From: a virus
Reading direction: 5' to 3' (one strand)
DNA length: 23,948 nt
IMG/VR virus record: IMGVR_UViG_3300036820_000605
Coordinates: 1 to 23,948 of that record
Below are positions 2,585-23,948 of the stretch, one piece after another. Made by a program: the position numbers and the translations under genes. The notes below the pieces were generated by a model that worked only from the letters and a program-made list of their open reading frames with translations, was not told where the DNA came from and did not search any database. Every line of letters starts with the position of its first letter. Position 1 is the first letter of the stretch.

Positions 2585-2627
2585 GTCGTTATGATTCCTC
2601 GGGTTTTTAATGATGGAGAGAACTGAG

Positions 2628-5015
2628 CTAATTCGTGCCGCGAACAATCGCGAACGGATCGGGTTTTGCCCAAGGCACAAGCTTTGTGAGCGAGAACCAC
2701 GACCCGACGGCATTCGTGCCGATCTGAAAGGAAACGCGCTCGGCCAGCAGGTTTGTAAACTGCTCCATGTCTCGCGCGGCCGGCGATGCCAACGTCCAAG
2801 AGCCCAAAGCGGTGACGCTCGCGTCCCCCGGCGAGTACGCCGTTACGGAAAGCGCGCCCGCGCCCTGAACGTACGCGGTCAGGTAACCAAACAGGTTGCG
2901 TCCGCTAAGTCCGGTCGCCGCGAGAAACGCCGTGCTGCAAAAGGAATTGATCGCGGCGCCATTGTCCGAATACTGTCCAGGTGTTAGCCCGTACACATTT
3001 CCTGTGTTGTTGTTCGACCCCAGCATTATTTGGGCGGTGCCGTTTGGACGTTCGATCAGGCCGCATGAATTTGCGGAGATTGTCCACGGCGCCCATCTTC
3101 TGGATCGTTCAGGAGCGGAGAGCATCGCGACGAGCGGATCACCGAATCCTTCCGTGTAGTCCAGCATGAGAATCTGGTTGGGTTGCGTGGCCGTTCCCAT
3201 CGGAACGCCCACGTAGATTTTCTTGTGCTGCGTGTCTACCTGGACCCACAAATTCTTGCCGTATTGCCAATTGATTGCATCCCACGTTGGCTGAATCTCT
3301 TGGGATAGCTTCGTCGGTTCGCTGCCATCGAAGAGGTACAACCCAGAGCGTCCCGCGATCACCGCCCATTCCTCGCCAAGCCCTATGCCATGCGCAGAGG
3401 GTGTCCCCACTTCGTTTGAAACTTCTTCCACGGTCCAGAGTGCTGGCTCATTCACGCCGTCGGTCGCAGTCGCATACATGCTGCGTTCCTTCACAAAATA
3501 AAGGTTGTTCCGTAAGGTGAACGCCGCACGGATGCACTGCCCATTGTTTTCGTCAATGCTCATGAACCCTGTGACGCCGTCGTACACCTCGGGCTCCTCG
3601 GTGCCGGACGCCCGCACGATCGAAGCGTTCAGTGGCTCATCGGTCGGAAAAATTTCGATGTTGTCGGTGATGAATGCCTCACCCGACGGAGACGGCGTGC
3701 CATCCGCGTACACGCGTAGCGTAAGATCGGTCGGTAGCGAAGTTTGGGGTGGAAAGAGCTGCGCCGTGAATTCTTGATAGGCTCCCGTCACCTGCACGGC
3801 ATTGATAGCCAATCCCGTGCCGACCTGGCCGGCTGTCGGGCTGTAGGCGTTGATCCGAAGCGTGCCTTGAAGGAGATTTGTAGTTCGCGTTATGCGGACT
3901 CGGACCGAATACTCCACGTTGTTCGCGCACAGCGGATTGCCGTTCACATCACGCACCGCGTTCTGCTCGATCATTCCGCGAACCAGACTCGATCCATCGG
4001 CCGTGATCTTGTAGGCGTCTCCCCAGACGACGTTAACTGATTCCCTTCCCGCTCCTGGCCCAAACGAAGGATCCAGCTCCCAACCAAGCGGGCGGCCGTT
4101 TCCGCTGGCGTCCCAACCGCCGTCGAACGAAAGATTGCGCCAATTATCCATTTGGGCTCGTTCGCCCCACCAGAAAAGGCGCTCCGCATAGTCGATCACT
4201 CCGAGTTGCTCGGGAAGTTCGATTTGAGAGAACAGATAATCCATGCTCACGCCGGAAAGCAAAATCGTGTCGGTGAAATCCAGCGTTAGGGACGTCGTCG
4301 AATTGTCATTGATCACCATCGTCGCGGGCACGTGATAGAAAGTCGCTCCTCCGGACCCGGTGAACGTAAGCAGACGCTGCACGACGTTCGATGGACCGGT
4401 GGGAATATTCGTCACGTTCACCATGAAGCCGCCGGCGGCGGTCCACGTAACTGGAGGCGATGGTGCGGTCCAGTAACCCTGGCGTGTCACGAAGACCACG
4501 GCGCACTGGTGTGGGCCCGGCGAGATGCTGCCCGGTGATGTGGAGTCTGCGGCCGCAGGGCTTTCCGCGGGTCCGATCTGGCTAACGCGATCCATGAACG
4601 AATCGTCATATTGCCGTGGGATGTCCTGTCCGCTCACGCCATCTCCGAAGGCCATGTACTCTCGGCCGAAGTGAGTCGTAGAGGCCAGATATAGCCCTGG
4701 CGTCATCCCGCCGCCGCTCACACCCGATAGAACTCCCGGTGTGGTCTCCTTATACAAATTGCCAAGCGAGTCATAGACCAGGCAACGTTGCACTAGACTG
4801 GGCGTCACATAGGTTTTCAGTCCGTTGATTTGCGGCGTGGCGCTCACTCCGGAAAATATCGAGACGAGGCCCGCACGTGTCCGTATACCGCCGGGAAAGA
4901 AATCAACGTCGCCCAAACTCGGCGACATTCCCGCCGGGACATCGGACGGGTCAAGCAGCGTCACCCAGCTGCCAAACGTATTCAACGGCAATGGCGAAAA
5001 AGTCTCTATAGACAT
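2628..5015 (-). CDS. Large tail hub/nozzle-like virion protein
   Basis: This 795-residue protein is almost entirely beta-rich, with no signal peptide. Its start, MSIETFSPLPLNTFGSWVTL, and the following PGDVDFFPGGIRTRAG-like pattern resemble the opening of phage tail-hub/nozzle proteins that thread a beta-propeller. Several blade-like segments follow, including the W-A-V-I-A-G-R-S-G-L-Y-L-F-D-G stretch near residue 560 and K-I-Y-V-G-V-P near residue 610. Residues about 300-460 look like an inserted jelly-roll (carbohydrate-binding type) domain, with alternating strands around RGMIEQNAVRDVNGNPL. Its size and place downstream of the capsid, spike and adaptor genes fit the tail nozzle of a podovirus, the role of gp10 in P22. 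No clear ribosome binding site precedes the ATG at 5015. It may depend on translational coupling or a weak site. Confidence 0.65.
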   Translation of the reverse strand: MSIETFSPLPLNTFGSWVTLLDPSDVPAGMSPSLGDVDFFPGGIRTRAGLVSIFSGVSATPQINGLKTYVTPSLVQRCLVYDSLGNLYKETTPGVLSGVSGGGMTPGLYLASTTHFGREYMAFGDGVSGQDIPRQYDDSFMDRVSQIGPAESPAAADSTSPGSISPGPHQCAVVFVTRQGYWTAPSPPVTWTAAGGFMVNVTNIPTGPSNVVQRLLTFTGSGGATFYHVPATMVINDNSTTSLTLDFTDTILLSGVSMDYLFSQIELPEQLGVIDYAERLFWWGERAQMDNWRNLSFDGGWDASGNGRPLGWELDPSFGPGAGRESVNVVWGDAYKITADGSSLVRGMIEQNAVRDVNGNPLCANNVEYSVRVRITRTTNLLQGTLRINAYSPTAGQVGTGLAINAVQVTGAYQEFTAQLFPPQTSLPTDLTLRVYADGTPSPSGEAFITDNIEIFPTDEPLNASIVRASGTEEPEVYDGVTGFMSIDENNGQCIRAAFTLRNNLYFVKERSMYATATDGVNEPALWTVEEVSNEVGTPSAHGIGLGEEWAVIAGRSGLYLFDGSEPTKLSQEIQPTWDAINWQYGKNLWVQVDTQHKKIYVGVPMGTATQPNQILMLDYTEGFGDPLVAMLSAPERSRRWAPWTISANSCGLIERPNGTAQIMLGSNNNTGNVYGLTPGQYSDNGAAINSFCSTAFLAATGLSGRNLFGYLTAYVQGAGALSVTAYSPGDASVTALGSWTLASPAARDMEQFTNLLAERVSFQIGTNAVGSWFSLTKLVPWAKPDPFAIVRGTN

Positions 5016-5558: not shown

Positions 5559-5626
5559 GGCGGTTTTGGGACGCAACCCAGACGTTATGTATGTGAATCC
5601 AACGCGTCGAATACAAGGAGCTATTG

Positions 5627-7567
5627 GTGCGCCGAGTGCTGACTGTGTTTGCGGTTATGGCTGTTGTGTTTGTCGCAGTGGCTTTTCCGCAAAAGGGAGT
5701 GGCTCCCGCGTCCGGCGTGCTTGGCGCCATTCAACCCACGGTCGTAGCTCAGGGTGTTGCCGCTAGAGCTCTCGCGATTGGGCCCCAGGCGTCCATTTAC
5801 GTAACGGTAGCCTCGCCCGCCGATCGAATCTTTACCCTTTTAGATTCCGCGACGACCGCTCTGCCACAGAACTCCGCCACAGCTCTCGCCCCAGTCGCCG
5901 GAACCGGTCTTGCCGGATCGCTCGGGGATGGCGGTGCAGCCCTCTCTGCGCAGCTAAGCCTAAATGCGAGCCTCGCTTACGAACGCAGCGGAGTATCTTT
6001 CGCCCCGGACGGAACCACCTACATCGCAGACACCGAGAACGGCACAATTCGCCGCATTGCTGGTTCGGCAAGCACCGAGCCGGGAATCATTCGCAGTGTC
6101 GCCGGCCAATGGGCGCCGCGCCAGAATCTGACGCTTTCCCGTCCCATGGGTATCGCCCTGGACCGCGCGGGCAATCTTTACATTGCCGACCACTCCGCTG
6201 GAGTGTTGGATATCCTTCATCAGGACACAGGCCTTCTCGAAACGCTGGCGCAGGTCTCATCTCCCGCAAGCGTTGCGGTCACCAGTGACGGAAGCGAAGC
6301 CTTCGTTGCCTCTCCCGAGACCGGCGCGGTTTTCGCAATCAATTTGCACACCCGGTCCATTCATTCAGTCGAAGGCATCGGCGGCCAGTCAACCTCCGCC
6401 GGCGAGGTCGCGGAAGTCTCGCCTTGTTCGGCCGGATCAAATCGCGTTTGCCCTTCAGGGCTTGCCGTGGACGGCGCCGGAAATCTATTCGTATCGGATC
6501 TGACCTTCGGAAGGGTCGTTCGAGTGGATGCACGTACCGGCGCGACAAGCGTCGCCTTAAGCAACCTCCAGCAACCGGGGGCTCTCGCCTTTGATCCCCA
6601 GGGGCGAAATCTCTACATTGCGGAACAAGGTCTGAACCGGATCATCGTGGCGCAAGGGGCAGGCGATCCGCCCGGCGCCCTTTCTATCTCGCCCTCTTCT
6701 TGGGCCTTCGCAAACGAGCCGATCTCAGGGGTGTCGCAGCAAGAGCAGTTCACCGTCACAAATACCTCCTCAGCTGCCGTGTCCGGCATTGCCGTCGCGT
6801 TCCAGCCGACCGCGCCCGCCACCACGAAGGATTTTTCTGTGGAGAGCACGTCTTGTCTCTCAACTCTCGCGGCGGCGGCAAGTTGCGCGGTGAACGTCGC
6901 TTTCACGCCAACCTCTATGGGCCCGCTCGCTTCTGCCGTTGCTGTCACAGATACGAATGGAGATTCTTCCACCGCATCCGTTGCGGGTACCGGCGACGAT
7001 TATCAGCTTCAGCTCGCTAGTGGCCAGACCCAGGAAGTGTCTGTAATCGAAGGGAGTTCCGCGACGTTCCATTTTCAGGTTGCGCCTCTTGGCGTCTTTG
7101 GCCAGAGCGGTGAGCAGGTAGCGATCGTTTGTCCCAGTGAAACTCCGCTGCGCAGCACCTGCACCGTGAATCCTGCCACGGTAACTGTCACCACGGGGTC
7201 GCCGTCCCCGTTTACGATCACAATTCAGACGTCCTCAACCGCAACGCTGGCGAAATTTATTCCTTCGTTCTTCTCGAACCCATTTAATTCGCGCGACCGC
7301 CTGCTCCTTATCGGCGTTGTGTTCGGCATAATTGGAATCGGTGCGTTATCGATCACGTTTAGCCAATTTCGGTATGTACGCGTACCGGTCCTCTTGATGG
7401 CAGGGGTTTTATTGCTCGCCGGCTGTCATCACGCGTCCTCTACATCCCTTGCAACGCCCACGGGTACGGCCCAGATTTTGGTACAGGGCGCCGCGCTCAG
7501 CAAGACGGGAGCGTCGCTAAATGCCACGAGGGGCGTCACAGTCGTCCTGGATGTCTTAAAGAACTAA
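5627..7567 (+). CDS. Exported NHL-repeat / choice-of-anchor Ig-like protein with C-terminal membrane segment
   Basis: I chose the GTG at 5627, with AAGGAG 6 bases upstream, over a TTG at 5624. The product has 646 residues. An N-terminal hydrophobic segment (about 3-20) follows basic residues and looks like a signal peptide or anchor. Residues about 120-345 contain at least four NHL-type blades, seen as G-x-A-x-D-x-x-G-N-L-Y-I-A-D (two near-exact copies, others degenerate). Residues about 355-455 look like a choice-of-anchor D Ig-like domain. A second beta domain follows to about 540. Residues about 559-580 and 587-600 are hydrophobic, the second ending A-G-C-H-H like a lipobox. This architecture is characteristic of secreted acidobacterial proteins. 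It faces against the phage genes, has its own promoter-like sequence, and therefore looks like cargo. NHL domains are binding beta-propellers, and no ligand can be inferred. Confidence 0.8.
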   Translation: MRRVLTVFAVMAVVFVAVAFPQKGVAPASGVLGAIQPTVVAQGVAARALAIGPQASIYVTVASPADRIFTLLDSATTALPQNSATALAPVAGTGLAGSLGDGGAALSAQLSLNASLAYERSGVSFAPDGTTYIADTENGTIRRIAGSASTEPGIIRSVAGQWAPRQNLTLSRPMGIALDRAGNLYIADHSAGVLDILHQDTGLLETLAQVSSPASVAVTSDGSEAFVASPETGAVFAINLHTRSIHSVEGIGGQSTSAGEVAEVSPCSAGSNRVCPSGLAVDGAGNLFVSDLTFGRVVRVDARTGATSVALSNLQQPGALAFDPQGRNLYIAEQGLNRIIVAQGAGDPPGALSISPSSWAFANEPISGVSQQEQFTVTNTSSAAVSGIAVAFQPTAPATTKDFSVESTSCLSTLAAAASCAVNVAFTPTSMGPLASAVAVTDTNGDSSTASVAGTGDDYQLQLASGQTQEVSVIEGSSATFHFQVAPLGVFGQSGEQVAIVCPSETPLRSTCTVNPATVTVTTGSPSPFTITIQTSSTATLAKFIPSFFSNPFNSRDRLLLIGVVFGIIGIGALSITFSQFRYVRVPVLLMAGVLLLAGCHHASSTSLATPTGTAQILVQGAALSKTGASLNATRGVTVVLDVLKN

Positions 7568-7593: not shown

Positions 7594-8310
7594 CTAAAGG
7601 TAAATCACGCGTGCGTGGTAGCTGTACGGCATCCTCCGTCGGCCCTTCGTCTGTTCCGGCCTCACGTATCGCTCAATCAGTTGTTCCGTCGCCATTTGCG
7701 CGGTTCCCAGCAGATCCTGTGCTAGAGCCCGTGCTCCTCGTGACCTTGCCGCCAGTGCGGCGGTGGCAAAGCCCAGCGGATCCGTGGCCGAGCGGATCTG
7801 CACTGGATCGGTTCCCGTAGTCAACAGAGGCAGAAGCTTCTCATAACGGATGCGCACCGTAATCGACTGGGTCGCTCCGATTAAATTGATCTTATCCTCT
7901 CGCCATTCCCAAAGCCTTAAGTACGAGCACGGCTGCAGGTTGAGCATTCCTCCGCCGCTCGTGAATTTCTCCATGGGCACAAACACATCCGTAGTGTTCG
8001 CTGCGGCGCGCTCCCACAGCATATGCGGGACCAGGCAGTCGGTGGGAAGCTGCGGGCTGGATACGTCGCTGATTTCCGTGCTCGTCACGCCGGTTGTGCC
8101 AACGGGATCAAGTTCCAGATCCTGCTGCTCCGCCATGACGCTCACGCCGTTCTCTGCCAACTCGCGCTGCAATCCTCGATAGGCCGAGTTCAACAATGGC
8201 ATGAGCAAAGTGTCCGTAAACACTGTGCCGGCCGAATCGTTCACGAGCGCCCGTGCCAGGTTCATTGCATCTTCGGCCTGCAAATACGCGGTTGTGGGAA
8301 CAACAGGCAT
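7594..8310 (-). CDS. Putative head-tail adaptor (tail accessory, P22 gp4-like) protein
   Basis: This 238-residue protein has a good start: ATG at 8310 with GGAGGAA four bases upstream. The first 65 residues are helical, with the pattern AEDAMNLARALVND, a short loop (AGTVFTD), then LLMPLLNSAYRGLQRELAE. I recognise this as typical of head-to-tail adaptor or tail accessory proteins of short-tailed phages. A central beta-rich region, with L-P-T-D-C-L-V-P and W-E-R motifs at about 88-105, is followed by helical residues about 180-215 and a basic C-terminus (KGRRRMPYSY). The family normally plugs onto the portal ring and connects it to the nozzle. It lies next to the spike and nozzle genes, unlike the classical order beside the portal, so the role is inferred from fold pattern. 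Confidence 0.6.
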   Translation of the reverse strand: MPVVPTTAYLQAEDAMNLARALVNDSAGTVFTDTLLMPLLNSAYRGLQRELAENGVSVMAEQQDLELDPVGTTGVTSTEISDVSSPQLPTDCLVPHMLWERAAANTTDVFVPMEKFTSGGGMLNLQPCSYLRLWEWREDKINLIGATQSITVRIRYEKLLPLLTTGTDPVQIRSATDPLGFATAALAARSRGARALAQDLLGTAQMATEQLIERYVRPEQTKGRRRMPYSYHARVIYL

Positions 8311-8785: not shown

Positions 8786-11700
8786 TTAATTCAGCAGAAT
8801 GGTTGGCAATCCGTACGAACTGAATGTCTGTCCGGCCGTGGGCATACCTATCGGGAACGCCATCGCACCGGACGAACTTGTCGATGTCGAAACCGCGCTC
8901 GATAGCGCGAGCGGGGCCGTTCCGCTGTATGCGATCTTCGCGGTCGTGGCACTTCCCGTAAAGGCGAAGATGTAATTTCCATTGGCGAGCGTCACGGTCC
9001 CTTGCGAACACGACTGCTGATCCGTTCCCGTTGCCGTTAGATTGACGGCCGACGACATCGAACACTTCACGTTACCCGCCGTATCCGTAATCGCCCAGCT
9101 GTAGAAATCGCCAGTATTCGAATCGAGCGTCGAGACATCCACGGTGATGTGAGAAAACGTCACGTCCGGCAAATAAATTACCGAGACGTCCACCTGGTTC
9201 GCGCCGCCCGGCGCGTTTCCCGCCGTGACAGTCCCCATCGAATAGCTCGATACCGTGTTGATGCCGCAGCCGACGCACGCTCCATTTTCAGTCACCGCAG
9301 AGCTGTGCGGCACTCTCGTGTTCACCGGCCCTTGTGAAAGTGCGATGTCGTCAACGAAGATCTGATTGGGGTTTGCGGCTGTATTCTCGAGAATGAACAC
9401 CCGCATGGATTGTGCCGTCGTACTCGAGCTGGAAAACGCATTCGGAACGCGAAACGTTATCGCGAAATTCCGCGTCGGAGTCCACGTGTTCGCCGCGGCG
9501 ACATTCCAATCCGCGCCCGTTACGTCGCAATTGCACGTAATTCCGTTGTTATACGTCAATGAAGCGTTGGTCGATTGCCAGTTGGCGCCCGTTCCAGCCA
9601 GCGCGGATGTCCCCGCATAGTAGGCAGGTTGGAGAACTCTTGCGTTCGTCGAAACGCTCGTGATCCGATCCGCCTCTGTGCAATTAGGGTCGGAGTAGAA
9701 ACGGAATCCAGGCCGAAACTTTGCGCTCGTGCTCGTCGAAGCGACCCGGAAGGCCAGTGTGTAGTTCATCGTCGGATCGGCTTGGATGCACCCGGAATGA
9801 ATCCCCAGCCCTGCCGTAGCGTTGTCTCCGATTTTTGCGCTGTAGGAGCCCTGTGTTGTCGAGTCTGTCGGAGTCGAAGCGCTCTGCTGTTGCGCGTATA
9901 TTCCGCTGCCCGCCTGATTGATGCTCGTGCCGCTCGCCCCGCTCCAATCATAAAGTGTCGTGGAGTTCGCCCATCCCTCCAATCCCGGATTGGAAAGCAG
10001 GTTCGTTCCTCCCAGGTCACTCAGACCATAGTGAAATGACGGTTGCCAGTTCGTTCCTGTATTGTCCATGGCTTGCTGAGCAGCCGCAGGCTCGTTCGGT
10101 TTCACCATCGTGTTCACGGAGAGCGAGAGGTATGGATCGATCATGTGATTGCCAACTGCCGATCCATCGGAGGGAAACTGAATGCAGTTGTAGACATTCT
10201 CGCAACGATTTGTCGGGCCGATCTGGACGTTCTGCGCGCCGACTAAATTGAAGCAGATTTGCCCGAAAGACGTCGTCGCCGCCTCGCAATCGTTCGCGTC
10301 AAATTCATCATTATCCGGATAATTTCCATTCGAATCTTTCGCAAGCGCGAATCCGATTGTTCCTGTGTTTTCAGCCGGCAAGTAGCAGGAATTCTGCTCC
10401 ACCTTTATTGAGTTGAACACTCCAGCGAGATAGAGACACGTGTCGTTCTGGCTGGCGGCGTCGAATTCGTTGTGTTTGATGAGCGAGTTCGTCGAATCCT
10501 CATTCCCTGTCGAGGTGTTTCCGTAGACCCCGTACGACCCGCCCCCCGTCCCCAGCACGAACCGGTTATTCTCAATATCTGTGTGGCCGACGCTGGTCAT
10601 ATTTATTACCGTCGAACTCGCGCCGTTCGCCGCCAGATACATTTTCTCGATGTGAATCCAGTCCACGTTGGCCGTTCCCGAATTCGGATTGTCGACGTCC
10701 GTGCAACCCGCGATTCCGCACGCGATATATCCAGAAGTCTGCGGCCTTGGAACCGTGCCCGAACCGCTCTCTCCGCATCCGTACATCGCCGCTCCATCGC
10801 CGGCTAACTCGACTGCATCGTTCGTCCCGGTGTCGCTGATCGTCAGCTTCCCTTGGCACCAGAGCAAAGAGGTGTGGGCCGGGATAGAAATGTGATGAGT
10901 CCCCGTGTACGTTCCTGTCAGACCGCGCGCGTCGCAAACGCCCGAAGTCGTCGACGCGGTAGTCAGGCACGAATTGATCTGCAAGCCCGCATCCGCTCCC
11001 GCAAACCGCTCAGCTTTCTGCACGCCATTTAATGCGTTGACGGCTGCCGTTCCGTTCACATCAAGGTTATACGCAGGGGTCGTCGTGTTTACTCCAAGCG
11101 AATTGTAAGTGAATCGATGCTGGCTCACCATTTCCGACACAGGCCACACGGTTCCCACGGCGCCCTGCGTTTGTCCGGTATAGAGAAAGCTCGTCGAACC
11201 AGAAGATACGAAAATAGCCGAGTTAACCTGCCCATCGAACCCGGGGTTAGTGGTGCTCACGTAAAGGCAATAGCCTCCAACCGCGGTCGGGGTCGATTGC
11301 GGAACGGTCCATGTGAAATTCACCGCGTTGTTCGATCCACTTATACCGATGCCTGTCGCGTACGCAAGTGTAGATAGGTGATAGAAGGTGCTTACCGCGC
11401 AATTGCTCAGCGAACCGCCCGATGTCGCCCATATCACGCCGTAGTAGGTCGCAGCCGAAAGTGAGCCGCCCGTTGTCGCCGAGCCGCTGAAACCACTTGG
11501 CGGCAAGAGTGCCGCAGTCTGGAAATCAGTATCACCCAAAGCTGTCTGCGTAACGCTTGAACTATAACCATGCAGCGAACCATTCCCGAATAGAACTCCC
11601 GTGGAAGCGTCCAATCCCAGCGTCGACAAAGAGTTGCCGTTCATGAACCATCGATGCGCGATCACTCCGTTGACGCAGCCGCCAAAAAATCCCGCGCACG

Positions 11701-13420
11701 GAAGGGAGTTCGATGCGGAGAGATACCCGCTAACGGGCGACGTTTCATCGGTCCCGTTCTCGTCGACCTGTTGCATTGTGCCCGTACTGATTGGGCCGCT
11801 CGGTCCTACGACGCTCCCTCCGTTGCCTATCGTGTAATAATCCCGCAAAGTGCCGGATTGGACTCGGATCCCTACGGCATTTGGCAATTGCGACCACGAA
11901 TTGATTAGCACGGGATTTTGCATGTATCCTGTCGCGACATTCAGGTTAACCATAGGATTGCCGCCATCAGGCGCATCCGCCTGTTGCGAATTATCCATCA
12001 GGATGTTGGCTATTCCGGCCAGGTTCCCAGGGGTGGACTCCGTGACGTTCAAAAACGGCAGGCTGGAGTTTTCTTGCGTAACGTTGCGGAAGCTCCAATT
12101 CCCTGGGAGGCTAGCAACCGAAGCCGATCGTTGGATGTAATCAAATCCCCCGCCAAAAGTGTTCACGTCCCGCATGAAGAGCAGTCCCACGATATTCTGT
12201 TCGCCTGTGAGTGGAGCTTCGCCGCTCATAATCATCGTGGGAACAGTGGGACTTCCCGAGTTGAACTGGCTGTTGTTGATCCAGACCCATATGCTATTGC
12301 TAATTTTGAGAGGCGTATTGTCCGTCTGTCCGGTGACCTGCGACGTGAGGTCAACGTCCTCCAGACGAACGTTGCCGGATGTTTGGATCCAGATCGCTTG
12401 GTTATAGCCATTGATAGCGATGTTTTCAAACGTGTTGTTCACGTCCGAATTGGGGCCAGAGCCATCGCCTGAGTTGCTGATCAAAAATACGGGCGCGCCA
12501 TTTGGACTCGCGCCGCCGTTCACATACAGCACGGCTCCCTCGGGCGGATTAGCTCCTTGGCTTGTCGTTGAAAGTGAACCGTACGAAAAAATATGAAGGC
12601 CGCCGCATATCGTAAAGATAGGAGCGGTTGTCGAGGTGCCCGTCTGCGTTTGAGTGATCGAGTACTTCCCTGATGGGATGAACACGCTGGGCCGCCCGTG
12701 CGATGCCACACTATAGCCGCACGCTGCCGTGATCGCTGCCTGAATGGCCGCGGTCGCATCACTTGCAGCCGTAGGGTCGGCGTTATAAGGTGGCGCCGTT
12801 ACATCGATGTAAGGACGGGGGCCTGCCACACTGGCATTCCCCCCTACCATGAGCGATGAAGGCGAAAAGCTGCCTGGACTAAAGTTTGACGTTGTCAGAG
12901 TTCCAGTGATCGTGGCGTTTCCGGCCACGCTTAAATTGCCTCCGAGAGTCAGCCCAAATGCCGAAATATCGTTTCCACTGCTCGTCGAGCTGACGTCCGG
13001 CGCCAGAATCACGTCGGGATAACTCATTGTCCCGGTTAAGCCGGGTCCCGTGATTTGAATCAGGTAGCGTCCCGCGGGCGCATAGAAGTGATAATTGCCG
13101 ATCCCGTCCGCCTGTAAAGGATTCGCCGAGGTTGTGGTAAGCGTCGCATTCGTGTAAAGCGTTGCCAACGGAGTGCATGGCGATCCTGTCGCCGTCGCCT
13201 GGCACACTCTCACGGTCGCGCCGGCGATCGGATGCCCCGAAGGCCCGAAGACGATGTCGTCTTTCCGCGAACCTTGTGCGTGGGCGCCGCCAACTACCCC
13301 CAGAAGTATCACCAAGGCCACGGCGCACGCCCCCGGTAGAGATAACCGTCGCGTATGTCGGGGCGAAGGAATTGGCTTGCTCCCATCGGCTTCAGTCTGC
13401 GTTTTTAGAATCATCGTCAT
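8786..13420 (-). CDS. Giant tail-spike-like protein with two beta-helix regions and a signal peptide
   Basis: From the ATG at 13420 (AAAGG upstream) the product has 1544 residues. A TTG at 13459 extends the frame but is a poorer start. Residues about 21-49 have basic residues (RHTRR), a hydrophobic run (AVALVILLGVVGG) and A-H-A before Gln49, a good signal peptidase I site. Residues 50-150 look like a beta-sandwich starting QGSRKDDIVFGPSGHP. A pectate-lyase-3-type opening at about 204 (YIDVTAPPYNADP with D-A-T-A-A-I-Q-A-A-I) begins a first beta helix. A second lies at about 845-1170, with repeated N-x-I/F strands. Residues about 1200-1400 look like a carbohydrate-binding jelly roll (TNLLSNPGLEGW). 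The mature part contains 28 cysteines by my count. Such proteins bind or cut surface polysaccharide. Context says tail spike, but the signal peptide suggests an exported protein. Confidence 0.75.
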   Translation of the reverse strand: MTMILKTQTEADGSKPIPSPRHTRRLSLPGACAVALVILLGVVGGAHAQGSRKDDIVFGPSGHPIAGATVRVCQATATGSPCTPLATLYTNATLTTTSANPLQADGIGNYHFYAPAGRYLIQITGPGLTGTMSYPDVILAPDVSSTSSGNDISAFGLTLGGNLSVAGNATITGTLTTSNFSPGSFSPSSLMVGGNASVAGPRPYIDVTAPPYNADPTAASDATAAIQAAITAACGYSVASHGRPSVFIPSGKYSITQTQTGTSTTAPIFTICGGLHIFSYGSLSTTSQGANPPEGAVLYVNGGASPNGAPVFLISNSGDGSGPNSDVNNTFENIAINGYNQAIWIQTSGNVRLEDVDLTSQVTGQTDNTPLKISNSIWVWINNSQFNSGSPTVPTMIMSGEAPLTGEQNIVGLLFMRDVNTFGGGFDYIQRSASVASLPGNWSFRNVTQENSSLPFLNVTESTPGNLAGIANILMDNSQQADAPDGGNPMVNLNVATGYMQNPVLINSWSQLPNAVGIRVQSGTLRDYYTIGNGGSVVGPSGPISTGTMQQVDENGTDETSPVSGYLSASNSLPCAGFFGGCVNGVIAHRWFMNGNSLSTLGLDASTGVLFGNGSLHGYSSSVTQTALGDTDFQTAALLPPSGFSGSATTGGSLSAATYYGVIWATSGGSLSNCAVSTFYHLSTLAYATGIGISGSNNAVNFTWTVPQSTPTAVGGYCLYVSTTNPGFDGQVNSAIFVSSGSTSFLYTGQTQGAVGTVWPVSEMVSQHRFTYNSLGVNTTTPAYNLDVNGTAAVNALNGVQKAERFAGADAGLQINSCLTTASTTSGVCDARGLTGTYTGTHHISIPAHTSLLWCQGKLTISDTGTNDAVELAGDGAAMYGCGESGSGTVPRPQTSGYIACGIAGCTDVDNPNSGTANVDWIHIEKMYLAANGASSTVINMTSVGHTDIENNRFVLGTGGGSYGVYGNTSTGNEDSTNSLIKHNEFDAASQNDTCLYLAGVFNSIKVEQNSCYLPAENTGTIGFALAKDSNGNYPDNDEFDANDCEAATTSFGQICFNLVGAQNVQIGPTNRCENVYNCIQFPSDGSAVGNHMIDPYLSLSVNTMVKPNEPAAAQQAMDNTGTNWQPSFHYGLSDLGGTNLLSNPGLEGWANSTTLYDWSGASGTSINQAGSGIYAQQQSASTPTDSTTQGSYSAKIGDNATAGLGIHSGCIQADPTMNYTLAFRVASTSTSAKFRPGFRFYSDPNCTEADRITSVSTNARVLQPAYYAGTSALAGTGANWQSTNASLTYNNGITCNCDVTGADWNVAAANTWTPTRNFAITFRVPNAFSSSSTTAQSMRVFILENTAANPNQIFVDDIALSQGPVNTRVPHSSAVTENGACVGCGINTVSSYSMGTVTAGNAPGGANQVDVSVIYLPDVTFSHITVDVSTLDSNTGDFYSWAITDTAGNVKCSMSSAVNLTATGTDQQSCSQGTVTLANGNYIFAFTGSATTAKIAYSGTAPLALSSAVSTSTSSSGAMAFPIGMPTAGQTFSSYGLPTILLN

Positions 13421-13494
13421 TGCCCGCACCTTTCTCGCGTTTAGTTCCCTGCTCGACAAAATCTCCAGCCTCGCACTGCCGCCGCGCGCGCATT

Positions 13495-15015: not shown

Positions 15016-16290
15016 TTAATAGCCGGAGGGGATTGCAAGGTTGTCGATGTAAGCTCCGCTGCGCGGCGAGTCATTCCAAACTTGGAAGCCCGTCACGAAG
15101 TAGAAGATATACGCGCTCGCCAGACCGCCGCTTGCGCCGTAGATCGGAAACACCGTTTGCCCGCCGACATCGTAGAAGTCGATATCCTGCATTACGGCGC
15201 GACCCCAATGTGACAAGTCCAGGAAATCAACGCGCGACTGGTTCGCGTTGATGCTCGACTTAATCGGGACTCCCGCCATTGACTTTTCGCCGGTGAACAG
15301 CAAATCGAGGTCGCTTGCACGGCCGCCGGCGCCCTCTTTGATAATCTGCGAAATCGTCACGCCGAGCTGTTCCCACTGGTGCTCTTGCTCGAGTGACGTG
15401 TAAGCAATCAGCTTGCTCAGCTGGTTCGTGCCCAACGACTTCCGTACCTTGTTGATGGCAAGCCGCACCGCTCCCGGCGTAATCGCGGAATTGTTGCCGT
15501 TCACTCGGGGTGTCGCCAGTTCAACCGGATACGTCGCACGGTTCATGTTGAGCCACGTTCCAGTCGTGGCATTGGTTTGGTGATAGAGGACGCCGAACAG
15601 CGAAACCGGCGAAGATCCCGTCAGGCCATCGTGCACCACCAGGTCGTTCGCGCTTGTGCCGCTCGGCAGGCTGTCTACTTGAAGGAGCGAATTGAACGGG
15701 TCGACGAGCATTACGTTCGCCGATCCGCGGTTTGTCGTGAGAGTCGGGTCGTATACCTGAACCGTCTGGTTGTAGTAGAAGAGCTGCGCGCCAGGCGGCT
15801 TCGCCATCGCAAACTGCGCCGCCACCCCGCTGGGAAGCCCGCTGGTTGTGATCGAACCGATTGTTCCAAGCACGCCGTTCCCATTCGTCTGCATCACCTT
15901 GTCCAGGAACGAGCGAAACTGCGCCATCGCGTTCTTCACTTCGCGCTTTGCCGCATTCTCGACCGCTTTCTCTGGCGCGTTCGACGCGTATTCGACAAGC
16001 TTCGTGATTTCCACGGCATGCCGGAAGAATACCGGCGTGACCTGTGCCACGTCGTAGGTCGTCCCGGACCCGCGGCCAAGGTCGCCGCCGTCCATGTTTG
16101 CCAGGCCGGCCTTGCCGCCCGGTCGAATCTGCAGCGGAAGCCGCATGTTGCGTGAGCTGACGCGCTCCACATCGCCCCGCTGCTGGATCATCGTCAGTAA
16201 GATATCGTCGCGCTCGTAGAGTAGGGGAAGCTTGTCTCGCACTTTCTCCAGTTGCAGCGCAACAGACTGCGAATTTTGCATCTGTGCCAT
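15016..16290 (-). CDS. Major capsid protein, HK97 fold likely
   Basis: This 424-residue protein is the best candidate for the main shell protein. The start is ATG at 16290 with AAGGAG 10 bases upstream. Features fit an HK97-fold capsid: a helical N-arm (residues 1-45, with VRDKLPLLYERDDIL), a beta-rich P-domain-like region (about 45-90, with R-P-G-G-K-A-G-L-A-N), a spine-helix-like stretch at about 100-135 (KLVEYASNAPEKAVENAAKR), and a long A-domain-like C-terminal part. The C-terminal part carries typical phage patterns such as D-x-L-F-T-G-E-K-S-M-A-G-V-P-I-K at about 325-340 and F-x-F-V-T-G-F-Q near 395. The length is close to the P22 coat protein (430 residues). The order portal, scaffold, capsid supports the call. 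Confidence 0.8.
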   Translation of the reverse strand: MAQMQNSQSVALQLEKVRDKLPLLYERDDILLTMIQQRGDVERVSSRNMRLPLQIRPGGKAGLANMDGGDLGRGSGTTYDVAQVTPVFFRHAVEITKLVEYASNAPEKAVENAAKREVKNAMAQFRSFLDKVMQTNGNGVLGTIGSITTSGLPSGVAAQFAMAKPPGAQLFYYNQTVQVYDPTLTTNRGSANVMLVDPFNSLLQVDSLPSGTSANDLVVHDGLTGSSPVSLFGVLYHQTNATTGTWLNMNRATYPVELATPRVNGNNSAITPGAVRLAINKVRKSLGTNQLSKLIAYTSLEQEHQWEQLGVTISQIIKEGAGGRASDLDLLFTGEKSMAGVPIKSSINANQSRVDFLDLSHWGRAVMQDIDFYDVGGQTVFPIYGASGGLASAYIFYFVTGFQVWNDSPRSGAYIDNLAIPSGY

Positions 16291-16609
16291 TGTTTGAAAT
16301 CTCCTTGAATTTAAATTAAGTCTTTAGCGATGTCGGAAAACCAGAGGTCGATTTGCAGGTGTTTCGGTCTCTGCCTTCTCGTCGTGTTGCCCTCTTTGGA
16401 TTTTCCTGCGTGCCCGCGCCTATCGAACATCAGCGGTTCTTGATTTCGGTACAGGCGCGAGGCCCGCCCGTAAACTGCTCTTAGGGCCAGTTGATGGAAC
16501 TTCTTCAAAAGCGCGATGATGCCGCCGCTGGAAACAACATCAGGCCAGCGCGCGCTCCACGGGCCCAACCCACGTCGGCACGCAACATTTAATCCGGGAA
16601 GGAATGTCG
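16291..16609. other. Divergent intergenic region between capsid gene and exported-protein gene
   Basis: These 319 bases separate the minus-strand capsid gene from the plus-strand exported-protein gene. They hold the capsid ribosome binding site (AAGGAG on the minus strand) near the left end and the GGAAGGA site of the plus-strand gene near the right end. A minus-strand frame crosses it to 16634, but it overlaps the plus-strand gene start and has no ribosome binding site, so I do not call it. I see no convincing promoter hexamers, hairpin or repeat. Confidence 0.5.
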
Positions 16610-17311
16610 ATGATGACGCCTGCCAAATGGGCACTAACCGTGGTGTGTCTTGCTGTTCTCGAACTGATTCCTGCTGTGTCGACTCCGGCTCAATGCAACT
16701 CCAGCCAGGATGGTGCAGTCGAGTGTTTCGTCGCTAACGCTGTGAAAACGGGACTTACTTCTCCGCGCTACGGCATGTCCATGTCGCAGTTCAAGGCCTA
16801 CGGAGTTTCTGTCTCGCGGATTTTGCAAACCGATGAGACGTACCTTGTGGTCGTGGGCACTTCCAGCGCAATCGCCGACGCGATGCCGCCCCTCAATTCC
16901 AACGGCGCCACCAACTCCTCCGCGCAACAAGCGGCGATCTCCAGCGTTGTGAGTGCACTTTTGGCCAACGATCTCGCAACCCTGCCATCGGAGACCACTG
17001 AGCTTGATCTTCAATACTTCTCGATGGACGTCGTCAGTGCCATGAATACAAGCGGTGGCTATCTTCAGTTGATGACGCCAGGCGTCGGTCTTCGCATCAT
17101 CGATTCCTACGTGGTCACGGGTACTTCCGCTGGAAAGGTCAATTGGACGTCCGTCGACGCAAGTTTATCCACCGCCATCAACAACATGCTCGCGGCCGGA
17201 CTAATAAAAGTTCCATCCGGAGTGTCGCTAGCCCAGGTGAATTCCTTTGTGGATTCGGTGGCGCAAACCATATGGACTTACAAGCAAGCAACAGCACGCG
17301 CCCATCTGTAG
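16610..17311 (+). CDS. Exported protein of unknown function (phage cargo candidate)
   Basis: I chose the ATG at 16610 because GGAAGGA lies 6 bases upstream. The ATG at 16604 is too close to this site. The product has 233 residues. Residues 1-28 form a signal peptide (basic K6, hydrophobic WALTVVCLAVLELI, then A-V-S-T-P-A-Q before Cys). The site is not a lipobox. Mature residues contain two cysteines ten apart at the N-terminus (CNSSQDGAVEC), a segment with a DETYLVVVG strand, and a helical C-terminal half rich in Ala, Ser and Thr, ending in an amphipathic helix. I do not recognise the family. It opposes the phage genes, is separated from them on both sides, and is followed by the tandem hairpin repeat. 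It is probably secreted or periplasmic, possibly cargo expressed during lysogeny. Confidence 0.6.
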   Translation: MMTPAKWALTVVCLAVLELIPAVSTPAQCNSSQDGAVECFVANAVKTGLTSPRYGMSMSQFKAYGVSVSRILQTDETYLVVVGTSSAIADAMPPLNSNGATNSSAQQAAISSVVSALLANDLATLPSETTELDLQYFSMDVVSAMNTSGGYLQLMTPGVGLRIIDSYVVTGTSAGKVNWTSVDASLSTAINNMLAAGLIKVPSGVSLAQVNSFVDSVAQTIWTYKQATARAHL

Positions 17312-17672: not shown

Positions 17673-18809
17673 TTACAAATTCAGGATGTCCCCGTCGGAC
17701 ATTCGACCGTAATCGATATCGCGAGGCGATCGCACGCGGGCGCCGTCGTTGCCGCCTCGGGTGCCGGCGATATCGACGCGGCTCTCCGCGGATCGCTGTT
17801 TTGCGCGCCGATCCTGGTTCGCTGTCAGAATCGTTGACGTCCACTCAGTCAAGACGCGTTTGGCTACGCCCGGTAGCGCTTGTCGTGCCCTTCCGACGAT
17901 CAGCGAAACGACCGCGGTGTGATGCTTGTCGTCAAGATTGCCCGAACGGAGAGCCCCGCGTAGGTGTTTCGCAAATTCGCCATTCGACTGAAGCGTTTTA
18001 TCGAGTTCCCTGTAGATTTCTCCGATAACCCGGTTCCGCGCGGTGCTCGAAACCTTGTCCGGCAATAGACGATTGACCTGTGTTTCGATGGCTTGTACAA
18101 CGCTCTTCACGGCTTCCGCATTCGCTTCCTGAAAGAATTGATGCTGCCCGCTTGCAAGCGCATCGGCGCTTTTTTGCGAACTCCCGGACTGCTGCGACGA
18201 TCCCTCAGCCGGATGCGAGTCAGATCCGCGCTCCTTAGGACGCTGTGCCTCGGCGGCCAGATTTTTCATGGCCTTTGCCAGTGACTGGAACGAAGCCGGA
18301 TCAAGCTTCGCCACCATCCGCGCCAGCTCGGCGTGATCTTCCGCGCGTCCAGACAAGAACAACGCGTCCATCGTCTGCACATCCGCCAGGAGCTTCGTCG
18401 CCGATCGCGCTTCCTCGGGCGTCGAAAATAATTCCCGATAAGCCTGCGCCTCATCCCAAGCCCGCTTCAGCTCAGGATTCGCATCGAACACTTCCTGAAA
18501 TTCTTCGGGGTCGGCGATTCCTGGAGCATTTTCATCGCTTCCGTCGGACCGGCCGGCATCGTCGGCGCTCTCGGCACCCAATTCACCTCGTTCAGACGAA
18601 GTGCCCTCAATGCCATTGTCATCAGTGCCTCGCGGGTCATGCCTCCTCGTGCGGGTGCGAACACCAAGCCCCAATATTTCGTCATCGGTTAAATTGCGAT
18701 TGGTCGCCCGCGATGAAACCTGCTCAACCGATTGGACTTCCGGCCTGATCGCCCTTGGGCCGCCAGGAGCCTGAACCACATTACTTTCCGTCATCGAAGC
18801 ACCCGCCAT
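17673..18809 (-). CDS. Putative scaffolding protein
   Basis: This 378-residue product has a strong ribosome binding site: GGAGGA six bases before the ATG at 18809. It is polar and helical, with no hydrophobic core pattern of an enzyme. An acidic, disordered N-terminal third (residues about 40-100, many Asp, Glu and Ser) precedes helical segments at about 103-185 (DPEEFQEVFDANPELKRAWD and onward). A low-complexity Ser-Gln-rich linker lies at about 195-225. A helical C-terminal region ends R-D-I-D-Y-G-R-M-S-D-G-D-I-L-N-L, a terminal motif I have seen in scaffold-like phage proteins. Position between portal and major capsid protein is classic for a scaffold, which guides procapsid assembly and then leaves. 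No Ser-His-Asp protease motif was visible, so a fused maturation protease is unlikely. Confidence rests on context and composition. Confidence 0.65.
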   Translation of the reverse strand: MAGASMTESNVVQAPGGPRAIRPEVQSVEQVSSRATNRNLTDDEILGLGVRTRTRRHDPRGTDDNGIEGTSSERGELGAESADDAGRSDGSDENAPGIADPEEFQEVFDANPELKRAWDEAQAYRELFSTPEEARSATKLLADVQTMDALFLSGRAEDHAELARMVAKLDPASFQSLAKAMKNLAAEAQRPKERGSDSHPAEGSSQQSGSSQKSADALASGQHQFFQEANAEAVKSVVQAIETQVNRLLPDKVSSTARNRVIGEIYRELDKTLQSNGEFAKHLRGALRSGNLDDKHHTAVVSLIVGRARQALPGVAKRVLTEWTSTILTANQDRRAKQRSAESRVDIAGTRGGNDGARVRSPRDIDYGRMSDGDILNL

Positions 18810-18980
18810 AGACTATCCTCCGCACTTCCCATGTTGTTCCAAAAGCCGATGCGATCGGAAAATTGTTACCAACGTACTATTCCGTGCCGCGCGCAGCCCT
18901 GCGAATCTTACTGTTCGAAAGCGAAGAGCCCTTGCCCGCCGTGGGCATTGCATCTCGCCAAAATATTTGAGGGGACGTTA

Positions 18981-19923: not shown

Positions 19924-22311
19924 TCAGTTAGCCTTCTGCGTCTGCGCCTGCTGTTTTCTCAAATAGTCCCTATGGAACATCGCATGTGCCTTCACATTCG
20001 CATACCCCGCGGGCGCATCAACCTTCGCCACCTGCCCGGCATCCGACGAAAACCACCGCATGCAAATCTCAAGCTCCACCGCATGATTGTCGGCAAACTC
20101 ATCAGGAACAATGCTCGGCAGCATCAGCTCGACGCCAGATCCATCGTCCCGTCGCACCACCGGAACCTCCGCCACGAGTTGCGCGATCTCGCGGTATTGC
20201 TTCGTCCTCGATTCCTCATCGGGAACGACAAGCTCCTCAAGCCCGATCAGCCGCTTGACCAGCGCCATGTTCTCAGGATGCGCCAGCACAGCCTGCATCT
20301 GTGGATCGGGACTCCCAAGCAGTTGCAGCAGCACCGCGCGTTGCTGTGACCACAGTGTCGGATACTGCTCATCCGTCTCCGGATAACTGAAAAGGTTTCC
20401 CTTCAAATCCACTAGCCGTATCCATTGCGACTCAAACGCCGCCCCCGCGCCTAGCAGTGTCACCTCAACGTCGTTCGGCCTGTTCCTGCGGAAGCAATCC
20501 ACCGCAAGCAGCATCACGTCCGCGTGGAAGAATTTCATCCTCCTCCACACCAGGCCAATCCTGCCCATCGCCTGGTCCCGCGCCATCGCGTAACCTGAAG
20601 CCGTGTCGTTGTTCGACATCGCGCCGCCGAAAAGCGCCGGAAAAGCGCCGGTCAGAAACTGCGCGATCGGTCCCATCAGATTCGCGGCGTGCTCCGTAAG
20701 ATCCGGAGGCACTTCAGCGGCCGCCGGTTGGAAGAACCCCGCAGCTAGCGACTGCCCCGGTTTTGCCCGCGCCGGATAATGCGAACCCGGTTCTGCCGTC
20801 TGGTTCTGCAGCGAGTCGAAATCCAGCACTTCGCTGTCCGCATAAATCGGCGGAATCCCGTACTCGTAAGTCTCCATCTGCAAATTTGACAGCGTATTAA
20901 AACGCTCCTGCACGCTGATCAACGCATCGCCCAGCGCCGGCCGCCCGCTGGATCCATCGCCGGGTAGTGCATGCAACACGCGCCAGTGGTCATCCATGCT
21001 CTCGTTGCGCGATTCGCAGTAAACGTCGCCCGCAAAAGCCACATACGCGCCATCCGGAAACATCTGCAACAACTGATCGCGAATTTCCTTATCCTCAAGC
21101 GCGAAAAATGCCCATGGCCTCAGCCACGTGCGTTGGAACGTGATGAGGTTAATGTTGGAATCGCCGCCCTCGGTCAACGGCCCGCCCTGCGATTGCGCAA
21201 GCCGCGCGAGCCGTTCGTATTCCTGTGAGCCGGACGCAACCGGAACCCCGATCCTATCCGTCGCGTGTGGATATGCCGCGCGCAACCGCGCCAGATGTAC
21301 CTCCATATTCCACTGGAGATACGGATATTCATGCATTTCGTTGGCCCACGGTGGAGTTTTCAGCTCCAGCCCGCCAACCATCGTCACCACTTCCTGGCCG
21401 TTTGGAACCCGCAGCCGCGTCTGGTTTCCAGGCACGGTAATCGTTTCGGCCGCAACAAAATCTTCTTCGGTCAATAACGCTCCGCATTGCGCGCAACTCG
21501 TAAAGCTCGGCGCGCCCGCATCGCCATCGCCTTGGCTGACGGCGTCGCTGGCTGCTTTCTTCGCGTTGTTTCTATTCGGCGCCGCGTCAGTTTCGCCACC
21601 GCACTCCGGACACACGTACGTATCCGCGCCGATTTTCACCTCGCGCTCGTCTAATTCCGACTCAGGGTGAAAACCAAACCGCTGCCCGTCGACCACGTAC
21701 CGCACATATGCGCCAACCTTGCCGTCCGTCCAAAGGTGAAACGCTTCATCGACGATCAGATTCCCGATTCGATTGTTTCTTTCCACCAGTTGCGACACTT
21801 CGGTCGCTGCCTTCGCCGCAGCCACGTCTTCCTCTGCCTGCGCCGACGCTGGGAAAAATCTCACGCGAGGCACATCCTGCGAAAGTACGGCGACAAGCGA
21901 CAGCCCGAACGCCTGGTAAATATTGGTCACGAACTCGTAGCGCGGCATTGAATCCAGCGAGCTGTTGCCCATCAGCTTTTGCTCGAATGGCAAATGCCAA
22001 TTCTGGTCGCGCTCGTTCCACCACAAATATTGCAACCCGCGCCAGAATTGGTGCGCCTGTTTGATCCGGCGGATTTCCTGACGGCGCGTTGATTCGGACT
22101 CGGTCGAGAATTGAAATACGAGTCGCCGCAGCGCATCCTGCAGTCTTTCGGTTAGCCGTTCGTTGTTCGGTCCGAAGTCGGCAGTGTCGGCCGCGCTCGG
22201 CCTTCCGCCATCGGTTAACTTTCCCGAGGCGTTGCTATTTCCCATTGCGGCCGGTGTTTCCACCGGCACAATTGCCGGATCGCCCTGCTGGAATTTTGTT
22301 TGCATGGACAT
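19924..22311 (-). CDS. Portal protein, P22-like, with a zinc-ribbon insertion
   Basis: This 795-residue protein has the size and order of a large podoviral portal (P22 gp1 is 725 residues). The start is ATG at 22311 or, more likely, 22305, since a weak CAGG lies right against the first ATG. Residues 60-155 show the usual portal opening: a long helix of Arg, Glu and Gln (75-88), W-R-G-L-Q-Y (90-95), then R-Y-E-F-V-T-N-I-Y (124-132) and Q-D-V-P-R-V-R-F-F-P (145-154). A long helix follows at about 160-195. Residues 234-276 carry two CxxC pairs (C234-P-E-C237 and C273-A-Q-C276), a zinc ribbon split by 35 mostly disordered residues. The C-terminal third has clip- and stem-like helices (about 535-600) and a helical tail (about 670-715, 775-795). 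Portals form the dodecameric DNA channel at one vertex and dock the terminase. Confidence 0.75.
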   Translation of the reverse strand: MSMQTKFQQGDPAIVPVETPAAMGNSNASGKLTDGGRPSAADTADFGPNNERLTERLQDALRRLVFQFSTESESTRRQEIRRIKQAHQFWRGLQYLWWNERDQNWHLPFEQKLMGNSSLDSMPRYEFVTNIYQAFGLSLVAVLSQDVPRVRFFPASAQAEEDVAAAKAATEVSQLVERNNRIGNLIVDEAFHLWTDGKVGAYVRYVVDGQRFGFHPESELDEREVKIGADTYVCPECGGETDAAPNRNNAKKAASDAVSQGDGDAGAPSFTSCAQCGALLTEEDFVAAETITVPGNQTRLRVPNGQEVVTMVGGLELKTPPWANEMHEYPYLQWNMEVHLARLRAAYPHATDRIGVPVASGSQEYERLARLAQSQGGPLTEGGDSNINLITFQRTWLRPWAFFALEDKEIRDQLLQMFPDGAYVAFAGDVYCESRNESMDDHWRVLHALPGDGSSGRPALGDALISVQERFNTLSNLQMETYEYGIPPIYADSEVLDFDSLQNQTAEPGSHYPARAKPGQSLAAGFFQPAAAEVPPDLTEHAANLMGPIAQFLTGAFPALFGGAMSNNDTASGYAMARDQAMGRIGLVWRRMKFFHADVMLLAVDCFRRNRPNDVEVTLLGAGAAFESQWIRLVDLKGNLFSYPETDEQYPTLWSQQRAVLLQLLGSPDPQMQAVLAHPENMALVKRLIGLEELVVPDEESRTKQYREIAQLVAEVPVVRRDDGSGVELMLPSIVPDEFADNHAVELEICMRWFSSDAGQVAKVDAPAGYANVKAHAMFHRDYLRKQQAQTQKAN

Positions 22312-23195: not shown

Positions 23196-23948
23196 TTACT
23201 GTCGTCGGCGCAGAAACGATACAGGTGTTGTTCGGCGCGTTTCTTCCAGTTGTGCCTTCCGCGCCTGAATCGCGCGAACCGTCGGATCAGTCGAAGTCAC
23301 TCGCGCCGCGAGCCGCTGATCGAGAGGCGCATACGCCAGCCCTTGCCGCATCCCATAGCGCGATTTCAATCCATAGCGTGCCGCGTCCGCCGAATCGTCG
23401 CCATCCACTTTTTTAACGTCTTCAATGCGCGCCGCATCGCGGATCAGGTTCGGCAATGTGCGAACCAACTCAATGCAGTTTTCCGTAAGGAGCCATTCGC
23501 CGGCGTCTAGCATCTGGTACATCAGCATCCACCCGCCGATTCGGTCATCGTCAGCGGGAATAGGACGCGGAAATCCGGCGGCCGCCAGCACATCCCCCAT
23601 CTGTTCTGCGATCGACGATTCATCCGTCCGCCTTGCGAACGCATCCGGTGAAAGATAAACCGCATCAATCTTTTCTCGCGTTCCATCGAACTCGCTTCGC
23701 GCGATGATCTCGCGCGCCAGCTCCCGCGGCGGCGTACGGTGCGTCACGTATTCCCGATAAGTCGCGATCTGTCCTTGGCGCGTCGACTCCATATCCACGC
23801 CCCCCGCATTCGCATAGCTGCCGGGAATCGACGTGTGCCAATACACTGCCGCCGGATGTTCAAAACCCCAGTCGAGCGAAATCCATCGCGGCCACCACCC
23901 TTTCCACTCGATGGTTTCCGGACGAATCACATGCCGCGAAAAATCAAA
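23196..23948 (-). CDS. Terminase large subunit, C-terminal nuclease domain (partial, cut by window edge)
   Basis: The open frame enters from the right edge as FDFSRHVIRP and runs 250 residues to a stop at 23196. The GTG at 23930 lies inside the frame and is not a real start. The motifs fit the RNase H-like nuclease of large terminases: W-P-R-W-I-S-L-D26-W-G-F (visible numbering) as the first acidic strand, D-A-V-Y-L-S-P-D103 as the second, and D-G-D-D-S-A-D-A-A-R-Y-G-L (182-194) as the conserved acidic-helix end of the active site. The N-terminal ATPase with Walker A and B lies beyond the window. The enzyme cuts concatemeric phage DNA and powers packaging through the portal. It is the most upstream late gene seen, consistent with the usual terminase to portal order. 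Confidence 0.9.
   Translation of the reverse strand, partial: FDFSRHVIRPETIEWKGWWPRWISLDWGFEHPAAVYWHTSIPGSYANAGGVDMESTRQGQIATYREYVTHRTPPRELAREIIARSEFDGTREKIDAVYLSPDAFARRTDESSIAEQMGDVLAAAGFPRPIPADDDRIGGWMLMYQMLDAGEWLLTENCIELVRTLPNLIRDAARIEDVKKVDGDDSADAARYGLKSRYGMRQGLAYAPLDQRLAARVTSTDPTVRAIQARKAQLEETRRTTPVSFLRRRQ

Follow-up and report, generated by a model that had tools for sequence, protein, structure and literature searches.

An exported, disulfide-rich candidate tailspike in a vertically inherited phage-like gene cluster of Acidobacteriota

RcGTA-like gene transfer agents (GTAs) are encoded by chromosomal, vertically inherited clusters of head-tail genes that are often mistaken for prophages (PMC6821227). 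The tailspike of the Rhodobacter capsulatus agent, TspA, has been described as detachable and able to degrade biofilm (PMC13420450, preprint 2026) and, by analogy, is the closest functional parallel of the spike reported here, which is encoded in a phage-like cluster of Acidobacteriota. Compared by its description, TspA is also the tailspike of a particle cluster kept by its host, and its non-canonical N-terminal beta-sandwich, its action on matrix polysaccharide and its loose attachment to the particle can be counted as further likenesses (PMC13420450). In contrast, the text on TspA mentions no signal peptide, periplasm or disulfide, its gene forms a genome module of its own with its own promoter rather than lying between capsid and tail genes (PMC13420450), and its particle belongs to Alphaproteobacteria. 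The acidobacterial cluster, a candidate GTA, shares with RcGTA-like agents a chromosomal, vertically inherited set of head-tail genes, but it is found in a different phylum and its gene set is podophage-like. WceF of Pantoea stewartii is, like the spike, an exported tailspike-like protein, a trimer (putative for the spike) that trims exopolysaccharide, although it carries a Tat signal and is encoded in an exopolysaccharide cluster with no particle genes (PMC7949094); it appears among the fold matches of the spike. The tailspikes of Sf6, HK620 and Det7 and gp12 of phi29 share with the spike a right-handed beta-helix fold and the combination of an N-terminal docking domain (proposed in the case of the spike) with a variable distal part. 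Podophage and other tailspikes are made and assembled in the cytoplasm and are not known to have a cleaved Sec signal, in which they differ from the protein described below.

The window analysed is a 23,948-base virus record without flanks. Its structural genes are all on the minus strand: the C-terminal part of the terminase large subunit (23196..23948, matching phrog_2 and cut by the window end), a portal-like protein (19924..22311, named from its size and its position beside the terminase, with no family match), a scaffold-like protein between portal and capsid (17673..18809, by position only), the major capsid protein (15016..16290), which was used as the survey marker, the spike (8786..13420), a connector-like protein conserved beside the spike (7594..8310, by position and conservation only) and a virion structural (tail) protein (2628..5015, phrog_3287). 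The spike gene runs from an ATG at 13420 to a stop at 8786-8788 and codes for 1544 amino acids, and a TTG at 13459 is a possible alternative start. Every clear relative of the spike, in viral contigs as well as in Acidobacteriota metagenome-assembled genomes (MAGs), lies within a terminase-portal-capsid-tail operon of this kind, which argues against the recent capture of a host exported gene put forward in the preliminary description. A phylum-wide profile search likewise gave no convincing host gene with the N-terminal domain of the spike outside phage-like elements (L064/L070 aside).

The first 48 residues of the spike (13277..13420, minus strand) have the sequence MTMILKTQTEADGSKPIPSPRHTRRLSLPGACAVALVILLGVVGGAHA, followed directly by QGSRKDD, and on the evidence of this sequence and of its relatives they form a Sec signal peptide cleaved between AHA and Q49. 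The n-region is positive, residues 26-44 are the most hydrophobic 19-residue stretch in the whole spike, and alanine occupies positions -3 and -1, as in signals cleaved by signal peptidase I. Relatives were gathered from viral contigs and Acidobacteriota genomes with the patterns QGSRKDDI or DGIGNY[HY], which introduces some bias; members with a different motif, L008, L038 and L044 among them, must have been found through the second pattern, and they contain a signal peptide too, as do most of the variants found later (QSSRKDD, QGTRKDD, QGSRHDG and QGSRKQD). A hydrophobic segment precedes the same cleavage site in all 49 distinct relatives, position -1 being A or G in every one of them and position -3 being A, V, T, L or I, so the signal peptide ending in A-H-A that had been read from the window alone is well borne out. 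In the window's clade, which comprises 24 sequences, average identity is 25% over the final 28 residues of the signal (20% when shuffled) and 76% over the 120 residues that follow the cleavage site; the signal peptide thus drifts almost freely in sequence, yet it ends directly before Q-G-S-R. Such drift next to a fixed cleavage context is the way in which a cleaved signal peptide, and not an attachment helix, is expected to evolve. A twin arginine is not conserved (RRx[hydrophobic] precedes the core in only 10 of the 49 relatives), which points to Sec and not to Tat. A cluster-wide excess of signal peptides was considered and discarded, because on the structural strand the spike alone consistently carries one; the antisense NHL and secreted genes of the cluster also carry them. 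A version without signal peptide, of the kind asked for earlier, is a 171-amino-acid protein with the N-terminal domain (L071:7622-8137, from an Acidobacteriota genome with a distant capsid homologue); in this element the parts are divided between two genes, since the protein adjoins a 1214-amino-acid spike that has both a signal peptide and 20 mature cysteines (L071:7983-11627).

The spike contains 29 cysteines, 28 of them from Q49 onward, in agreement with the earlier count. The proposal that this richness points to export gains from the parity of the counts: the mature proteins range from 9 to 32 cysteines, and among 54 distinct spikes 48 have an even number (p = 3e-9) and 6 an odd one. After clustering at 60% identity the number is still even in 21 of 24 (p = 3e-4), while no parity is seen when the signal peptide is included (even in 32 of 54, p = 0.2). 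In a 14-sequence alignment, cysteines 528/547 and 1407/1497 show matching presence patterns, 855/882 co-vary likewise and 1453/1471 nearly so. Even mature counts together with paired gain and loss indicate disulfides, which form outside the cytoplasm. They are most simply read as nearly every mature cysteine being bonded in a disulfide and the signal being cut at the predicted site, which implies export to an oxidising compartment. Metal sites could also yield even counts, but a metal reading does not need a signal peptide. As a control for parity, the capsid, portal, connector and other cluster proteins are of limited value, most of them having too few cysteines or mixed counts. Taken together, the sequence patterns strongly support Sec export of the spike, cleavage behind AHA and the pairing of its cysteines into disulfides, in the periplasm or outside the cell.

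Structure models built from the 14-sequence alignment, compared with known folds, place two right-handed beta-helices in the spike, as the preliminary description had suggested. The first (residues ~194-564, 11729..12841, minus strand, as are all segments of the gene) is hypervariable among relatives and confidently modelled, with good pLDDT and Z scores of 23-28; it matches ORF18 of Geobacillus virus E2 (Z 28.4, rmsd 2.9, 291 residues aligned) and the Det7 tailspike (Z 26.2, rmsd 3.1, 297 aligned). The second (residues ~790-1133, 10022..11053) is conserved, cysteine-rich and more weakly modelled (Z 20-22), the match to the Sf6 tailspike reaching Z 21.7 with an rmsd of 3.6 over 281 residues, and it is preceded by the phage motif LGVNTTxPAYNLDVNG. 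The structural matches of both helices are tailspikes and polysaccharide enzymes. Between them lies an FnIII-like beta region (residues ~633-760, 11141..11524), assigned from predicted strands and sequence with no family match. Behind the second helix follow a conserved region (residues ~1140-1370, 9311..10003), whose fold is not reliably modelled and whose carbohydrate-binding-like nature is a guess, and a C-terminal module (residues 1371-1544, 8789..9310), which according to the alignment is swapped between subclades. For the window spike, a Pfam scan found no family and a sequence search of the PDB gave chance matches only; no Peptidase_S74 domain is present in the virus record. In more distant relatives, the region behind the N-terminal domain has matches to Pect-lyase in Pfam and to tail spike in PHROG.

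The N-terminal domain itself (residues 49-198, 12827..13276, beginning QGSRKDDIV), defined by its conservation, is 74-79% identical to that of relatives, as against 20-51% for the middle region (residues 199-760) and 65-81% for residues 799-1348, and the second clade can be aligned to the window spike in this domain only. Its relatives give a weak match to a CarboxypepD_reg-like beta-sandwich. The identity of the domain tracks that of the capsid (Spearman 0.80), with the signal peptide at a mean identity of 30%. In comparisons of the window with four relatives, dN is 0.46-0.83 in the middle region and 0.015-0.065 in the capsid. Conservation and analogy suggest that this domain is the one that docks the spike to the particle. 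With right-handed helices that match solved tailspikes and a gene located in a structural operon, the modelled protein follows the modular plan of a tailspike.

A receptor-binding, polysaccharide-binding and probably depolymerising tailspike, belonging to a vertically inherited cluster that is most likely a GTA, is the reading that we consider somewhat probable, docking to the particle and transfer of DNA by the cluster being inferred. With the spike exported by Sec, cut after AHA and folded with paired disulfides in the periplasm or outside, as strongly supported above, capsids and tails would assemble in the cytoplasm while spikes accumulate in the periplasm. The transglycosylase and the spanin-like protein of the cluster would then open the cell and, at or after lysis, the N-terminal domain may dock the spikes onto the released tails, a timing suggested by the fact that spike and tail would be made in different compartments. 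The tailspike of P22 can dock onto particles in vitro. Spikes that stay free may in addition loosen the matrix around them, and the hypervariable first beta-helix would set the surface polysaccharide that is recognised. The more specific proposal, that this acidobacterial order keeps a GTA whose spike is matured in the periplasm and locked by disulfides, so that the infectious particle is completed only at lysis, is advanced tentatively.

It is rather unlikely that the exported spike never joins a particle and serves instead as a depolymerase or adhesin that the producing cells keep in the periplasm or on the surface, or secrete, for example thinning the matrix for particle spread or preventing particles from sticking to the producer. 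Signal peptide and disulfides speak for such a protein, and there are precedents both in WceF, a bacterial tailspike-like exopolysaccharide enzyme that is exported with its Tat signal (PMC7949094), and in TspA, which detaches and degrades biofilm (PMC13420450). However, the spike gene is part of the structural operon and shares its strand, and the conserved N-terminal domain with exchanged distal parts, as well as the correlation of this domain with the capsid, suggests a physical partner in the particle.

The assignment of the cluster to the chromosome rests on a survey of genomes, mostly metagenome-assembled, in which 44 of the 95 genomes from a single order of soil Acidobacteriota carry the capsid gene. 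This order includes Ca. Acidiferrum (the group was named through loci from Ca. Acidiferrum typicum, L056, and Ca. Acidiferrales, L039); at class level the capsid gene is present in 56 of 399 sampled genomes. The capsid is mostly single-copy. In 14 genomes a NAD synthetase gene is located 17-30 kb from the capsid, on the same contig and always convergent, with a DsbA-like gene in between, and the host genes that flank the cluster (DsbA-like, NAD synthetase, IscA and IDH) recur from genome to genome. Among the flanks of four MAGs, those of G004 and G005 have the same host genes on both sides, and host genes also adjoin the block in the IMG/VR records L002 and L005. A gene for a DsbA/DsbC-like periplasmic thiol oxidoreductase adjoins the lysis end in 14 of the 14 genomes checked (for example L077:9145-10056, L079:4938-5858 and L080:6057-6959). 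This gene was considered as cargo of the element but, being also present in genomes that lack the cluster, it is a host neighbour. Over 32 genomes, the capsid and NAD synthetase trees have 18 of 29 splits in common (random mean 0.2, maximum 3) and the Mantel r is 0.69 (0 of 2000 permutations); the other 11 of the 29 splits disagree, indicating some transfer or noise. The GC content of the cluster tracks that of the host, and the capsid is under purifying selection (dN/dS ~0.01-0.04, with dS near-saturated). No integrase was found in four viral records or within 30 kb of the cluster in the MAGs G001, G003, G004 and G005; replication genes were assessed by visual inspection of the gene lists. 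At the same locus, G432 and G478 have only the end genes of the cluster, without the capsid gene, and in G433 the host flanks lie side by side. The window is assigned to this cluster from its gene order, which is the same, and from its capsid, which shares 83% identity with the capsid of G003, a genome having the cluster at this locus, and 88-97% with those of nearer relatives.

Inheritance of the cluster with the chromosome at one locus, under purifying selection, is strongly supported by these comparisons, and the phage context assumed in the preliminary description has to be revised in this sense. Vertical inheritance at a fixed locus, no integrase nearby and structural genes under purifying selection are the features looked for in a GTA, and the pattern is that expected of a GTA or a similar domesticated particle. 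No RcGTA family came up in the Pfam and PHROG scans, and our literature search, incomplete in its coverage, found no paper on an acidobacterial gene transfer agent. A conventional temperate phage or prophage lineage, whose tailspike would have an unusual signal peptide, seems an improbable alternative: IMG/VR lists the record as a virus, the set of head and tail genes is full and capsid relatives exist outside the order, but the chromosomal site is the same across the order, with congruent trees, mostly single copies, no nearby integrase and remnants at that site in G432 and G478, and tblastn gave no match in 50,697 annotated phage records, whether the query was the complete spike, the N-terminal domain or the capsid.

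Export also leaves room for a surface protein by which the carrying cell excludes superinfection or modifies its capsule, as proposed earlier, and cysteine parity and the other secreted genes on the opposite strand of the cluster are in line with it. This function is nevertheless quite improbable, because the mature protein has neither a membrane anchor nor a lipobox at the cleavage site, and the conserved N-terminal domain, the hypervariable and swapped distal part, the tailspike fold and the late-operon position fit a receptor-binding spike better. Hydrophobic N-termini of virion proteins are generally known, but none of the results speaks for an uncleaved helix used in attachment, which the preliminary description had named as the refuting case, or in trimerisation. 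Such a helix is hardly credible, since the segment drifts to near the level of shuffled sequences around invariably small residues and a fixed QGSR, and the parity of cysteines requires its removal.

If the reading as a tailspike of a vertically inherited cluster is right, Acidobacteriota, which are among the most abundant and least tractable soil bacteria, would be added to the small number of lineages in which a candidate gene transfer agent is known, and the particle would be a tailed one built from two compartments, a mode of construction that to our knowledge is undescribed for tailed phages. The case is also a warning that viral contig collections contain fixed chromosomal clusters, and the test of cysteine parity offers a cheap and general way to separate real from chance signal peptides.

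Several minor observations concern the cluster and its relatives. Distant capsid homologues outside the order are present in G668 (G668:C1:3675665), G662, G689, G711, G717, G739, G745 and G552. In G458 and its kin the capsid is kept and no such spike lies within 12 kb; at L108 (G458) the capsid is 81% identical, the neighbourhood is rearranged and a terminase gene lies downstream of the capsid, and L112 (G460), of the same lineage, contains no such spike in the stretch read. This lineage may represent either a genuine prophage or a cluster that has been remodelled. Frames are interrupted, by decay or assembly error, in the spike of L006 and in the capsids of L035, G473, G471 and G002. Three genes of the window lie on the opposite (plus) strand inside the structural block, coding for an NHL-repeat protein with a signal peptide (5624-7567), a small secreted protein (16604-17311) and a protein with PilZ and response-regulator receiver domains (18732-19829); many relatives of clade 1 retain them, and they could serve the system in regulation or at the cell surface. 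Finally, the gene at 1577-2713 (minus strand) codes for a tail-like protein, 71-75% conserved in near relatives and with no Pfam match, whose C-terminal half, starting with GNC and ending with THN, has by eye the look of a Hint/intein-type domain.
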